DNA of 64,000 nt from the NCBI GenBank assembly GCA_017483465.1, contig JAFUWN010000012.1, positions 22,747 through 86,746 on the forward strand, given 5' to 3'. A program made the position numbers and the translations under genes. The notes under the pieces were generated by a model, which was not told the origin of the DNA, ran no database searches, and saw nothing but the letters and a program-made list of their open reading frames with translations. The number at the start of each line of letters is the position of its first letter. The first letter of the stretch is position 1. The stretch comes from Oscillospiraceae bacterium (lineage in GTDB: Bacteria; Bacillota; Clostridia; Oscillospirales; Ruminococcaceae). Below, piece by piece: positions 35,132 through 40,676 of the stretch.

Positions 35132-35529
35132 AAATCAGCCAGTACAGAGAAAATGCATTTTTAATCCTGTTTGAAGCCTCGTTCCGTGACGATACACCGG
35201 AAGAATTATTCGCCCTTGCCGAAGAAATCGGAGAAATCAAGCTGAATGACAAATCCCGGAATCTCGTCAGAGGCGTACTCTCCCGGACAGAAGAACTGAA
35301 TCAGATTATTGCTTCCTACAGTCCGAAACGGGCACTCAGCCGTATTGCAAGAGTCGATCTGATTATTTTAAGAATGGCTGTCTATGAATTGCAGAATTCT
35401 CCGGAACTGCCTGTCGGTATCACCGTCAGCGAGGCGGTTCATCTTGCAGAACTCTATGCTTCTGCCGAAGATACGGCTTTTATCAACGGCATTCTGGGAA
35501 ATTATGTCCGTGATCAGGAGAAAGCCTGA
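35128..35529 (+). CDS. nusB: Transcription antitermination factor NusB
   Basis: NusB binds boxA RNA together with S10 for antitermination of rRNA operons. The 133-residue protein shows the family ends: RENAFLILFEASF at the start and GITVSEAVHLAELYASAEDTAFINGILG at the C-terminus. It overlaps both neighbours (four bases and one base). Confidence 0.95.
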   Translation: MKISQYRENAFLILFEASFRDDTPEELFALAEEIGEIKLNDKSRNLVRGVLSRTEELNQIIASYSPKRALSRIARVDLIILRMAVYELQNSPELPVGITVSEAVHLAELYASAEDTAFINGILGNYVRDQEKA

Positions 35530-36464
35530 TGAGTGTCTTTCTCGGACTGGATACCAGTAATTATACCACTTCGACGGCTCTTTATGATTCTGATACAGGA
35601 GAGATCACACAGGCCAAAAAGCTTCTGCCTGTCAAGCCCGGAGAAAAAGGCCTCCGGCAGAGCGACGCTGTGTTTCATCATACAGTACAGCTTCCGGAAG
35701 TTCTGCAAAAACTGGAAATTCCGGAGCTTTCCGGTATCGGGGTATCTGTCAGGCCACGAAATGCAGAAACATCTTATATGCCCTGTTTCCTCTGCGGAGA
35801 GGGCACAGCCCGGATGATCGGACAGGTTTTACAGATTCCTGTGTATCAGACCAGCCATCAGACAGGCCATATTTTAGCGGCTCTGTATTCGGCACAGAAG
35901 CTTGACTGGATTCACAGGGAATTTCTGGCATTTCATGTCAGCGGCGGTACGACAGACTGTGTATACTGTCAGCCGGAAGCAGGACAGATTTTACACATCA
36001 CCCCTGTTTCCGGTTCTCTGGATTTAAAGGCCGGACAGCTGATCGACAGGGTAGGCCTTATGCTGGGCTTACAGTTTCCCTGCGGAATGGCTCTGGAAAC
36101 GCTGGCCATGCAAAGTGAGAAAAATTTTAAATACAAACCTGTCATGAAAGAGCTTGACTGCTGTCTGTCCGGACTGGAAAACCAGTGCCGTAACATGCTG
36201 ATTTCTGAGCAGCCCTGTGATATTGCAAAATTCTGTCTGACGGCCGTTGCCTCTGTGATTTCTGTGATGACGGAAACAGCACAGGAACGTTATCCGGCTC
36301 TGCCTGTACTGTATGCCGGCGGTGTCATGTCAGATCAGTATATCCAGAATCAATTAAAGCAGAATCTTCAGACAGAAACCGCCTTTGCCGAACCTGTCTT
36401 TTCTTGTGACAATGCCGCCGGAACGGCGGTTTATGCCGCTTTGTGCCATGCTGACAGTCACTGA
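35529..36464 (+). CDS. TsaD-paralogous peptidase M22-family protein
   Basis: A 311-residue ASKHA-fold protein of the glycoprotease (M22) family. It has LGLDTSNYTTSTALY near the start, a HxxxH metal site (SHQTGHILAALYS), and the C-terminal AGGVMSDQYIQNQL block. It is shorter and more divergent than the universal tRNA-modification enzyme TsaD and is most likely the clostridial paralogue of unknown role that commonly sits between nusB and xseA. Its end overlaps the next gene by 17 bases. Confidence 0.85.
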   Translation: MSVFLGLDTSNYTTSTALYDSDTGEITQAKKLLPVKPGEKGLRQSDAVFHHTVQLPEVLQKLEIPELSGIGVSVRPRNAETSYMPCFLCGEGTARMIGQVLQIPVYQTSHQTGHILAALYSAQKLDWIHREFLAFHVSGGTTDCVYCQPEAGQILHITPVSGSLDLKAGQLIDRVGLMLGLQFPCGMALETLAMQSEKNFKYKPVMKELDCCLSGLENQCRNMLISEQPCDIAKFCLTAVASVISVMTETAQERYPALPVLYAGGVMSDQYIQNQLKQNLQTETAFAEPVFSCDNAAGTAVYAALCHADSH

Positions 36465-38274
36465 ACTCAACCGGAGAGCCGCCGATATAATTAAGAATAA
36501 GAAAAATCTGCAATTGCTTCTGACAGAGGGCGAAATTGCCGGACTCCGGATACAGGACGGACATCTGTTTTTTTCGCTCTGTGATACGGAAAGCTCTGTC
36601 AGAGCCGTCATGTTCCGGAATCTTGCCGAAAGACTGAAATTCCGGCCGGAGAACGGCTTGTCTGTCATCGCCGCCGGAAGTGCGGAACTCTATCCGGTTT
36701 CCGGTCAGTTTCAGTTCCGTGTCACGGATATGCTGATACAGGGAATCGGCAGCATTCAGAGAGGCTTTCAGACCAGAGAACAGAAATTGCAGGCAGAAGG
36801 GCTTTTTTCTGAAACAAATAAAAAAGCCGTTCCGGAGAACCCGAAAAAAATCGGCGTGATCACATCCGAATCCGGAGCGGCTCTCCAGGATATTCTTCAG
36901 ATTCTGAAACGGCGGTCGCCGTCTGCCGAAGTGATATTATTTCCCGTTCATGTACAGGGCAGACATGCCGAAGCGGAAATCTGTCAGGCTCTGGAACACG
37001 CAGACACGCAGAATCTGGATGTTCTGATTTTAGGCCGTGGCGGCGGAGCTTCGGAAACGCTTCGTGTATTCGATTCTGAAAAAATCGTCCGTGCGGTATA
37101 TGCCTGCCGGACACCTGTGATTTCGGCAGTCGGACACGAATCAGATGATACACTGACAGATCAGGCCGCTGATCTGCGTGCTCCGACACCCTCGGCGGCA
37201 GCAGAACTGGCCTCACAGAAACGACATCCGGAAATTTTATTAAATCATCAGAAAATTTCATCTGTAAACCAGATACAGACAGGAGACTGTCTGAAAATTG
37301 CTCTGCCGGACGGGTGTCTGATCGTCCGGACAGAATATAAGGAGCGTGATTTTATCATGAACGAATTCCAGAAAACAAAAATGAAATCCTATGCCGGACG
37401 TGTGGAAGAAAAACTGCTTTCTGTAATTGCCGGTCTGCAAAAAACAGCAGAATCCAGAAACATGCAGATCAATACGCTGTTTGAAGCTATGCGGCATTCC
37501 CTCACAGCCGGCGGAAAACGAATCCGTCCGGTGCTGATCTATGCATTCTGTGAAGTCTGCGGCGGTACGCCGGAGCAGGCCGATTCTGCCGCCTGTGCCA
37601 TGGAAATGACACATACGGCTTCTCTGATTTTTGATGATCTGCCTGCCATGGATGATGATGATCTGAGACGAGGCAAACCCTCTTGTCATAAGGCATTCGG
37701 TGAAGCTACAGCGATTCTCGCCGGGTGCGGCCTGATGTGCTCGCCGTTCGGCATTCTCGCAGATGATCAGAATCTTTCCGAAAAACAGAAACTGGCGTTA
37801 ATCAGCCTGTTAGCCCGTGAAGAAGCTTCTTCCGGCATGGTCGGCGGTCAGGTGCTGGATATGCAGTTTGAAACACAGGAGCATGTCACGGCAGAAGAAC
37901 TCGAAATCATGTGCAACGGCAAAACCGGAGCACTCATGAAAACGGCCTGTCAGATGGGCTGTCTCTGCGGCGGCGGTTCTCCGGAGCAGTTACAGGCTGC
38001 CGGAACATACGGCCTTGCCCTCGGACTGGCATTCCAGATTATTGATGATATTCTTGATGTCACAAGCACTTCGGAACAGCTCGGCAAACCTGCCGGAAGC
38101 GACGCCGAAGAACAGAAACAGACTTTCGTCACAATTCTGGGAATTGAAAAAGCCCGTGAACGTGCGGCCGCTCTGACAGAGCAGGCCTATGCAGAACTGG
38201 ACAGGTTTCCGGCTTCTGCGGCTGTTGATTTTCTCCGTGCCCTGACAGAAGCTATGCTTGTCAGAGTGCAGTAA
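36448..38274 (+). CDS. In-frame XseA-IspA fusion: truncated exonuclease VII large subunit joined to farnesyl diphosphate synthase
   Basis: One uninterrupted frame of 608 residues. Residues 1-303 are exonuclease VII large subunit: an OB-fold, then the catalytic part with IGVITSESGAALQDIL, ILGRGGGASETLRVF and SAVGHESDDTLTD (His and Asp of the active site). After PTPSAAAELASQ only about 45 residues remain, ending in the usual SVNQIQTGDCLKIALPDG tail; the long coiled-coil that holds the XseB subunits is absent, and no xseB gene is present. Without a stop codon the frame enters farnesyl diphosphate synthase (from Met304), with LIFDDLPAMDDDD and FQIIDDILD. IspA also has its own start and ribosome site, so both a fusion and a separate IspA may be made. 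Confidence 0.85.
   Translation: MLTVTELNRRAADIIKNKKNLQLLLTEGEIAGLRIQDGHLFFSLCDTESSVRAVMFRNLAERLKFRPENGLSVIAAGSAELYPVSGQFQFRVTDMLIQGIGSIQRGFQTREQKLQAEGLFSETNKKAVPENPKKIGVITSESGAALQDILQILKRRSPSAEVILFPVHVQGRHAEAEICQALEHADTQNLDVLILGRGGGASETLRVFDSEKIVRAVYACRTPVISAVGHESDDTLTDQAADLRAPTPSAAAELASQKRHPEILLNHQKISSVNQIQTGDCLKIALPDGCLIVRTEYKERDFIMNEFQKTKMKSYAGRVEEKLLSVIAGLQKTAESRNMQINTLFEAMRHSLTAGGKRIRPVLIYAFCEVCGGTPEQADSAACAMEMTHTASLIFDDLPAMDDDDLRRGKPSCHKAFGEATAILAGCGLMCSPFGILADDQNLSEKQKLALISLLAREEASSGMVGGQVLDMQFETQEHVTAEELEIMCNGKTGALMKTACQMGCLCGGGSPEQLQAAGTYGLALGLAFQIIDDILDVTSTSEQLGKPAGSDAEEQKQTFVTILGIEKARERAAALTEQAYAELDRFPASAAVDFLRALTEAMLVRVQ
37357..38274 (+). CDS. ispA: Farnesyl diphosphate synthase (internal start)
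   Basis: The likely independently translated form of the second half of the fused frame. ATG 37357 follows AAGGAG (37339-37344). The 305-residue product is of full family length, begins MNEFQKTKMKSYAGRVEEKL and carries LTAGGKRIRP, the first Asp-rich motif DDLPAMDDDDLRRGKP and the second DDILD. It makes farnesyl diphosphate from IPP and DMAPP; dxs follows two genes later. Confidence 0.85.
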   Translation: MNEFQKTKMKSYAGRVEEKLLSVIAGLQKTAESRNMQINTLFEAMRHSLTAGGKRIRPVLIYAFCEVCGGTPEQADSAACAMEMTHTASLIFDDLPAMDDDDLRRGKPSCHKAFGEATAILAGCGLMCSPFGILADDQNLSEKQKLALISLLAREEASSGMVGGQVLDMQFETQEHVTAEELEIMCNGKTGALMKTACQMGCLCGGGSPEQLQAAGTYGLALGLAFQIIDDILDVTSTSEQLGKPAGSDAEEQKQTFVTILGIEKARERAAALTEQAYAELDRFPASAAVDFLRALTEAMLVRVQ

Positions 38275-38783: not shown

Positions 38784-40676
38784 ATGAGTATAACAAATCA
38801 GGAATCCGGAGAATATCAGCTCAAAGACCTGAATCTTCCGGAGGATTTGAAAAAACTGAATTTTTACCAGTGCCGGAAGCTAGCCAAAGAAATCCGTTCG
38901 CTGCTGGTGCGTGTGATTTCCAGAAACGGCGGTCATCTTGCCTCGAATCTGGGTACGGTAGAGCTGACAATGGCTCTGCACCGTGTTTTTGAATCTCCGA
39001 AAGACAAGATCATCTGGGATGTCGGCCATCAGTGCTATACGCATAAAATTCTGACAGGCCGTGCCGGTCAGTTTGCTACCATCCGGAAAGAAAACGGAAT
39101 TGCCGGCTTTCCGAAACCGGAAGAGTCCGAACATGATATTTTTATCAGCGGTCACAGCAGTACTTCCATTTCCGTTGCCTGCGGCATTGCCGAAGCAATG
39201 AGAATGCAGGGCGATACCCAACATCATGTGATTGCCGTGATCGGAGACGGTGCCCTGACAGGCGGTATGGCTTTTGAAGGGCTGAATAACGGCGGCAAGA
39301 AAAAAATGAAGAATCTGATCGTGATTCTGAATGATAATAACATGTCTATTTCCGGAAATGTCGGAGCAGTTTCCGGCTATCTGCGTTCGATTCGGGAAAG
39401 TGAAGAATATGTCCGCAGAAAACAGCAGCTTGAAAAGAATCTCATGAATACGCCCGGTGTCGGCACACATGCCGTCAGAGTCCTGAAAAAGACAAAAGAC
39501 AGCTTCAAGCGTGTGATGTTCCAGCAGGCCACTATGTTTGAACAGTTCGGCTTTGTATATTTAGGCCCTGTTGACGGCCATAACATGCAGGAACTGGAAG
39601 AAGTGCTCCGCACGGCAAAGCGTTATGACGCTCCTGTGTTTATTCATGTGAATACCGTCAAGGGAAAAGGCTATCTCCCGGCGGAGAAAAATCCCAGTCT
39701 GTTTCACGGTGTACCTAAATTTGATATTATCACCGGAAATCCGGAAGTCTCCGGAAATGACTGCTATTCTGAAATTTTCGGCAAAGAACTCACGGAAATG
39801 GCCGCACAGGACAAAAGAATCTGTGCTGTCACAGCGGCAATGACATTCGGAACAGGCCTGCAGTATTTTCAGGAACAGTTCCCGGAAAGATTCTATGATG
39901 TCGGCATTGCCGAACAACATGCGGTTACGTTTTCGGCCGGACTTGCCGCCGCCGGGATGATTCCGGTATTTGCTGTCTATTCGACATTCTTGCAGAGAGC
40001 ATATGATCAGCTTCTGCATGATGTCGCCATCGGAAAACTGCATGTGATTCTCGGCATTGACCGTGCCGGGATTGTCGGCGAGGACGGAGAAACCCATCAG
40101 GGAACATTTGATGTGCCTATGCTGACTTCCATTCCCGGAGCTGTGATCTATTCTCCGGCCTGTTATGAAGAACTCCGGCTGTGCATGAGGAGAGCCGTCC
40201 GGGAAGATACCGGCCTGACAGCGGTGCGGTATCCCAGAGGCAATGACAAAGCTATGACATTCCCGAAAGAACATCTCAATACAGAGTATACATTCACAGA
40301 ATCCGGCTCGGATATGCTGATGATTTCTTATGGCCGGGTGTATCAGGCACTGTGGGAAGCACACTGCACCTGTGAAAAAATCGGCTATCAGACAAGCTTA
40401 TTGAAATTAACCAGAATTTTCCCTGTCATGGAAGAACTGGTAGAAAAAGCGTTATCTTACCGGATTGTGATGTTTTTTGAAGAAAGCAGCGGTTACGGCG
40501 GAATTTCTACAATATTCGGTTCTCTGCTGGCACAGTACGGATTCAAAGGCCGTTATGTCAGAGTTTCGGCAGACTGTTTCCTGAAACAGGCTTCTGTGCC
40601 GGCTCTGCTGGAAAAATCGGAACTCTCCGCACATGCCGTCTGTCGGTATATCTATGCGTATGGAAACAAGGATTGA
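38784..40676 (+). CDS. dxs: 1-deoxy-D-xylulose-5-phosphate synthase
   Basis: Dxs is the thiamine-diphosphate enzyme that starts the MEP isoprenoid pathway. The 630-residue protein has SNLGTVELTMALHRVF, WDVGHQCYTHKILTGR, GDGALTGGMAFEGLNN (ThDP binding) and DRAGIVGEDGETHQG. The frame extends to TTG 38763; ATG 38784 is chosen, but neither has a good ribosome site. Its end overlaps tlyA. Confidence 0.95.
   Translation: MSITNQESGEYQLKDLNLPEDLKKLNFYQCRKLAKEIRSLLVRVISRNGGHLASNLGTVELTMALHRVFESPKDKIIWDVGHQCYTHKILTGRAGQFATIRKENGIAGFPKPEESEHDIFISGHSSTSISVACGIAEAMRMQGDTQHHVIAVIGDGALTGGMAFEGLNNGGKKKMKNLIVILNDNNMSISGNVGAVSGYLRSIRESEEYVRRKQQLEKNLMNTPGVGTHAVRVLKKTKDSFKRVMFQQATMFEQFGFVYLGPVDGHNMQELEEVLRTAKRYDAPVFIHVNTVKGKGYLPAEKNPSLFHGVPKFDIITGNPEVSGNDCYSEIFGKELTEMAAQDKRICAVTAAMTFGTGLQYFQEQFPERFYDVGIAEQHAVTFSAGLAAAGMIPVFAVYSTFLQRAYDQLLHDVAIGKLHVILGIDRAGIVGEDGETHQGTFDVPMLTSIPGAVIYSPACYEELRLCMRRAVREDTGLTAVRYPRGNDKAMTFPKEHLNTEYTFTESGSDMLMISYGRVYQALWEAHCTCEKIGYQTSLLKLTRIFPVMEELVEKALSYRIVMFFEESSGYGGISTIFGSLLAQYGFKGRYVRVSADCFLKQASVPALLEKSELSAHAVCRYIYAYGNKD

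Follow-up and report, generated by a model that had tools for sequence, protein, structure and literature searches.

Within one lineage of gut bacteria resembling Ruminococcus, the large subunit of exonuclease VII (ExoVII), XseA, has lost the coiled coil that binds the small subunit XseB, and the xseB gene is missing with it. In the 64,000-nucleotide stretch of DNA analysed here (the window), the shortened protein, referred to as mini-XseA, is in addition joined in frame to farnesyl diphosphate synthase (IspA). On the basis of sequence comparison, we consider it fairly probable that a single ancestral loss generated an XseB-independent minimal ExoVII that is still selected, that the fusion is secondary, and that IspA is mainly self-initiated. 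Specifically, the common ancestor of one Ruminococcus sub-lineage may have lost the XseA coiled coil together with xseB through one or two deletions, leaving a compact protein, made of OB fold, catalytic domain and C-terminal segment, that would need no XseB and would stay under selection. Most likely, this would be a small DNase that depends on metal, acts on single-stranded DNA and is either less processive or changed in its oligomeric state. The removal of xseB would have placed the end of xseA onto the start of ispA, and small indels at the junction would since have switched the two frames between the fused and the unfused state on several occasions. The object of interest is the XseB-free mini-XseA under selection, the fusion itself being probably an incidental, tolerated by-product.

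The fused frame extends over positions 36448..38274 of the window, on the + strand like all the features described below, and comprises 608 codons plus the stop, with no stop codon between XseA and IspA, as an earlier note on this DNA had read it. Pfam and NCBIfam profiles account for both halves. In particular, residues 2-95 (36451..36732) form the OB-fold nucleic-acid-binding domain of XseA (PF13742, tRNA_anti_2, 2.7e-21), followed by the catalytic domain at approximately residues 103-258 (36754..37221), recognized by PF02601, by the motifs ALQDIL, GRGGG and GHESD and by alignment to the solved XseA chain 8txr_A. The match to PF02601 (Exonuc_VII_L; residues 119-306, 1.2e-61) covers only positions 1-165 of the 315 of the profile, and the NCBIfam xseA profile (TIGR00237) is matched over positions 1-259 of 389. 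At an approximate scar, 37216..37236, about 95 residues are missing that in intact relatives contain the coiled coil and the LDPLxxLxRGY motif. Beyond the scar, the XseA C-terminal segment SSVNQIQTGDCLKIALPDG is present and aligns with that of 15 intact relatives, so that the normal C-terminal tail is indeed kept, as had been claimed; the kept segment LLNHQKISSVNQIQTGDCLKIALPDGCLIV lies at 37237..37332 and is supported by this alignment and by dN/dS. In other words, mini-XseA resembles known XseA (TIGR00237, PF13742 plus PF02601, 8txr_A) in its OB fold, its catalytic domain with the aligned D, R, H and D, its C-terminal segment and its place in the gene order of intact relatives (TsaD-like gene, xseA, ispA, dxs), and differs from it in the absence of the coiled coil and of the LDPLxxLxRGY motif and, in the window, in a frame that continues into IspA. 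The TsaD-like gene (35529..36464; Pfam, NCBIfam) overlaps the start of xseA by 17 nt with its 3′ end, and dxs (38784..40676) served as the downstream marker for placing relatives; the order TsaD-like gene, xseA where present, ispA and dxs is kept together in the relatives read.

The ispA gene occupies 37357..38274 and retains its own ATG, which matches the start position in unfused relatives. Its product matches PF00348 (polyprenyl_synt; residues 343-582, 2.2e-61) and is close to full length on the FPPsyn profile NF045485 (positions 12-286 of 288; 306 bits against a cut-off of 275), with DDLPAMDDDD and DDILD, which we take to be the two aspartate-rich motifs of FPP synthase. It differs from other IspA proteins in the N-terminal in-frame extension by mini-XseA and in the AGD motif, whose D is a C in the window (AGCGL, 37720-37734). 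The AGC variant is shared with the IspA of one fused relative, G029, and most aligned relatives have AGD; since AGY is found in G018 and AGA in the intact genome G001, the residue here varies within the genus.

XseA is organized in an OB fold, a catalytic domain, an XseB-binding coiled coil and a C-terminal domain, as described in one study (PMC5684230). Eleven mini XseA proteins, from all mini genomes but G061, a near copy of G025, were aligned with 15 intact ones of the genus. The spacing between the TPSAA and RGYAA motifs amounts to 104-148 residues in all 15 intact proteins; all 11 mini proteins lack both the intervening stretch and RGYAA itself, while their last ~30 residues align well. 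The missing part had previously been taken for the coiled coil, and the absence from the window of precisely this stretch agrees with that identification. The shortening of the XseA half, put at about 303 residues against about 450, likewise stands, but the reference length does not: intact XseA measures 396 aa in 11 of 15 genomes of the genus and 418, 425 and 425 aa in three others, one being cut by the end of its stretch. Because the intact proteins are mostly of 396 rather than 450 residues, the loss in the window amounts to about 95 residues. Also confirmed is the absence of xseB: the genome of the window (95% complete) contains no match to PF02609 above cut-off, a difference from the ExoVII holoenzyme, which consists of XseA plus XseB. 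With E values up to 0.1, the only two PF02609 matches in this genome (0.018 and 0.066) are below cut-off and lie within frames of 868 and 1449 aa, and a hidden xseB elsewhere in the genome was rejected on this ground. As a control, PF02609 matched in 10 of 14 known genomes, in 9 of them above cut-off. A triple fusion of XseA, XseB and IspA, hinted at by open-frame values of ~790-810, was also rejected, as reading of the loci revealed separate xseA and ispA ORFs and the values had joined adjacent in-frame ORFs.

In E. coli, according to the same study (PMC5684230), the function of ExoVII requires the interaction between XseA and XseB, and losing this interaction abolishes ExoVII function in ciprofloxacin tolerance. 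For this reason, the need of exonuclease VII for its coiled coil and its partner is hard to test, and the loss of XseB in the present lineage could mean a loss of ExoVII function. Closely related species here cover the complete system, a trimmed XseA without either element, the trimmed XseA fused to a metabolic enzyme, and none of these, so that what the coiled coil and XseB contribute can be tested directly.

The distribution of these states was followed in a sample of 38 genomes of the genus, 30 of which have a readable xseA-ispA locus; the state counts refer to these 30, outside of which stand G006, G017, G019, G020, G023, G026, G030 and G036. Mini-XseA is encoded by 12 of the 30 genomes. 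It is fused to IspA in eight of them, namely the genome of the window (G000), G029, G018, G027, G025, G061 and G003, where the fused frame is in every case unbroken, and G035, where it is open until the contig ends after the junction. In the other four (G008, G014, G031 and G032) mini-XseA is unfused and there is a short out-of-frame overlap between xseA and ispA. Three further genomes (G033, G012 and G016, with completeness of 88, 78 and 63, respectively) have no xseA, and a TsaD-like gene, only partly on the contig in G016, is found directly 5′ of ispA. The intact xseA-xseB-ispA arrangement is present in the remaining 15. XseB scores above the PF02609 cut-off in 15/15 intact genomes, and in 0/12 mini, 0/3 xseA-less and 0/8 unreadable-locus genomes; four genomes of other genera of the same family (G184, G269, G285 and G314) have both XseB above cut-off and an XseA match (4/4 each). 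As a separate observation, in the three xseA-less loci (L018, L011 and L016, respectively), from which both xseA and xseB are lost, ispA begins a few dozen bases past the TsaD-like gene and is preceded by a strong Shine-Dalgarno match.

Relatives with an intact locus, which according to the earlier note would refute its reading if re-sequencing also restored the missing bases, thus exist, yet independent assemblies of close relatives repeat the structure of the window. A sequencing or assembly artefact, that is, a lost stretch accompanied by a frameshift, is accordingly hardly conceivable as an explanation. The named relatives are themselves metagenome assemblies, but fused frames recur in other species that were assembled separately (RUG14155, SIG535, UBA4321 and SRR14411347_bin.1; 63-77% protein identity), and UBA7013, in the same range of 63-77% protein identity, has the same structure with the locus spread over two contigs. 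A sequencing error was ruled out, the fusion being common to eight species-level genomes and the trimmed XseA to twelve. One of the fused genomes, G025 (5% estimated contamination), contains two differing copies of the fused locus on contigs C74 and C84 (L046, L047 and L035) and is probably a mixed bin.

A species tree was built from the TsaD-like protein, IspA and Dxs of 19 genomes and rooted on 4 of the 15 intact ones; it excludes the second, contig-cut copy of G025, and G018 fills just 44% of its columns. The 15 fused, mini and xseA-less genomes fall on one side of a 100/100 branch that separates them from the four intact genomes, a grouping that can be called one clade on the assumption of the root, since the tree was rooted on intact genomes. 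That coiled coil and xseB have disappeared together from 12 species-level genomes, all on one side of this branch, makes the change an evolutionary remodelling, as had been proposed from the window, rather than an error of base calling. The xseA-less trio is nested inside the clade, with support of 100/99 as a group and of 100/100 together with G003, G031 and G032. The simplest history would be that coiled coil and xseB were lost once, in the ancestor, and that xseA later disappeared entirely, again once, from the xseA-less trio. With respect to the fusion the picture is different: the deletion is shared by the 12 genomes, but the fusion is not one shared trait, because 4 of the 12 are unfused and the two states interleave on the species tree, with at least three changes of the fused label. 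When the fused species are constrained to a single group, the resulting tree is rejected (AU p ~1e-57), and these two results imply repeated gains or losses of the fusion. The gene tree of XseA unites the mini proteins (100/97) but attaches them, on long branches, to G184 of another genus (94/96) and not to the intact XseA of their own genus. Since the gene tree makes this connection, descent of mini-XseA from the intact XseA of the genus is not proven, and gene exchange and long-branch attraction cannot be told apart as causes of the grouping.

The dN/dS values of mini-XseA (NG86) range from 0.09 to 0.19 in 6/6 pairs: 0.121 for G031/G032, 0.145 for G003/G031 and 0.140 for G003/G032, three pairs that share members, 0.099 for G018/G027, 0.186 for G000/G029 and 0.091 for G025 versus its own second copy. 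In the same genomes, ispA gives 0.09-0.17 in five full-length pairs and 0.37 in the sixth, of 94 codons, and intact XseA gives 0.07-0.125 in four pairs. Judged from these ratios, mini-XseA is under purifying selection, with dN/dS like that of ispA and near that of intact XseA. For the C-terminal segment, two pairs of relatives, which include neither the copy of the window nor G003, together supply 82 codons and give a value of ~0.20. The positions aligned to D, R, H and D of 8txr_A, which we take to be the catalytic residues, are kept in 12/12 mini copies (in G008 as judged by eye); the deposited chain has an A in place of the aligned H. Mini-XseA is probably still a nuclease. A detail that counts against a functional reading is the sequence ETL in the window and G029, at a place occupied by EDL, EEL or EHL in the remaining mini proteins and by EDL in intact XseA.

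A possibility to be weighed here is that mini-XseA is a decaying remnant heading to loss, the frame of which would be kept open in fused species mainly as a lead into ispA. The three nested relatives without xseA between the TsaD-like gene and ispA, in which xseA is evidently dispensable, are in line with decay, as are the ratio of differences at codon positions 1+2 to those at position 3 (0.41 in mini XseA vs 0.32 in intact XseA) and the XseA/IspA protein-distance ratio (1.14 vs 0.99). The rise of the former ratio, however, is not special to XseA, because ispA and the TsaD-like gene rise likewise, to 0.41 each in mini genomes vs 0.34 each in intact ones. Decay is further opposed by the low dN/dS of all six pairs, by the catalytic residues kept in all 12 copies, by the lack of any stop codon in the compared XseA part of 13/13 aligned mini copies, and by the fact that unfused forms have no need of an open frame into ispA. 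On balance, this explanation appears unlikely. Highly improbable, in our view, is that mini-XseA has taken on a new role other than that of a classic ExoVII exonuclease, for example as an endonuclease or a nucleic-acid-binding regulator: the protein is conserved despite the loss of its XseB-binding part and, in the window, is far from the intact XseA of the genus (41-53% identity), but the four aligned catalytic positions are the same in every mini copy. As an observation on the locus, the protein-level rate of change of the TsaD-like gene, xseA and ispA in the mini clade is ~2.7-3.3 times that of dxs, the corresponding value being ~1.0-1.1 in four intact genomes.

Coming back to the minimal ExoVII with a secondary fusion, the junction indicates how IspA may be produced. 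Where the genes are unfused, the last few bases of xseA double as the beginning of ispA, read in a different frame (ATGA in G008, for instance); where they are fused, the two are in phase, with no intervening stop and the ispA start codon retained. The ispA start and ribosome site were reported to survive inside the frame of the window, and they do: a likely ribosome-binding site, AAGGAG (37339..37344), stands 12 nt 5′ of the ATG at 37357. Its duplex energy of -8.6 kcal/mol is equalled in 0.7% of locus windows. Shine-Dalgarno scores, in which spacing has no part, were computed for the ispA of all fused genomes except G061, of all unfused mini genomes except G032, and of 7 of the 15 intact genomes. 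They amount to -6.5 to -8.6 kcal/mol in 7/7 fused genomes, within the top 0.7-3.9% of locus windows, and reach percentiles of 0.9-5.2% in the three unfused mini genomes and 0.4-1.6% in three xseA-less genomes; among the seven intact genomes, two are in the top 3%, two at 16-20% and three near 43-51%. A strong ispA site is a trait of the mini clade rather than of the whole genus, a pattern that independent initiation of ispA would predict. The 12 nt spacing of the window, longer than usual for a Shine-Dalgarno sequence, is a point against this reading. The xseA start of the window, the only xseA start scored, has no strong site (-2.2 kcal/mol, equalled in 54% of windows).

The strong ribosome site kept within the frame suggests that IspA is made mostly on its own. 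Most of it, a protein of ~33 kDa, would probably come from the internal start, with some fusion produced by read-through. Since there is no stop between the frames, any ribosome translating xseA of the window must also make the fusion. Translation of xseA may be coupled to the overlapping TsaD-like gene, in which case ribosomes entering from there would read on to give a fusion of ~67 kDa. The ispA gene tolerates an in-frame extension of 303 residues 5′ of its own start.

Alternatively, the fusion itself could be selected. FPP synthases are dimers, and the IspA homodimer might replace the coiled coil as oligomeriser of two XseA catalytic domains, or the fusion might tie DNA trimming to isoprenoid supply. 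The prevalence of the fused state among mini genomes (8/12) would fit this idea, and so would the in-frame linker, near-constant in length in G000, G029 (with one codon more), G018, G027, G025 and G061. Nevertheless, we regard it as distinctly unlikely, given that mini-XseA is maintained unfused in 4/12, that the two states interleave on the tree and that the internal ispA start is retained; by frame alone, moreover, about one third of random junction indels would be expected to restore phase. Very unlikely is also a combined scenario, in which an XseB-free minimal ExoVII exists and, in fused species, uses the IspA dimer as a substitute scaffold for the coiled coil, as a true two-function enzyme for DNA trimming and isoprenoid synthesis. 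No result obtained here requires a function of the fusion. The fusion, given most prominence in the earlier note, therefore does not hold as the headline trait, in view of the unfused third of the mini genomes, the repeated changes of label and the strong ispA site of all seven fused genomes scored.

Within the class, XseA was matched in at least 281 of 293 genomes of ≥90% completeness. Thirteen of these matches, mostly picked for low scores and representing a subset of the low scorers, were re-examined. No clean mini-XseA was found among the 13: ten have XseA frames 373-482 aa long, and the other three are disrupted or partial, being divided into two frames (G092), located at a contig end (G070) or restricted to the C-terminal part (G242). 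In the literature, no title or abstract start describing a coiled-coil-less XseA or an XseA-IspA fusion was found, in a search whose coverage leaves out most subscription journals. Two minor observations emerged from the survey. In one family (f82), all four sampled genomes (G223, G240, G257 and G335) are without an XseA match among the matches listed, which suggests a family-level loss. In G092, a genome of 100% completeness, XseA is split into two adjacent frames (C18:2213-3329; L074 and L076) at profile position 197/198, reflecting either a frameshift or a real split.
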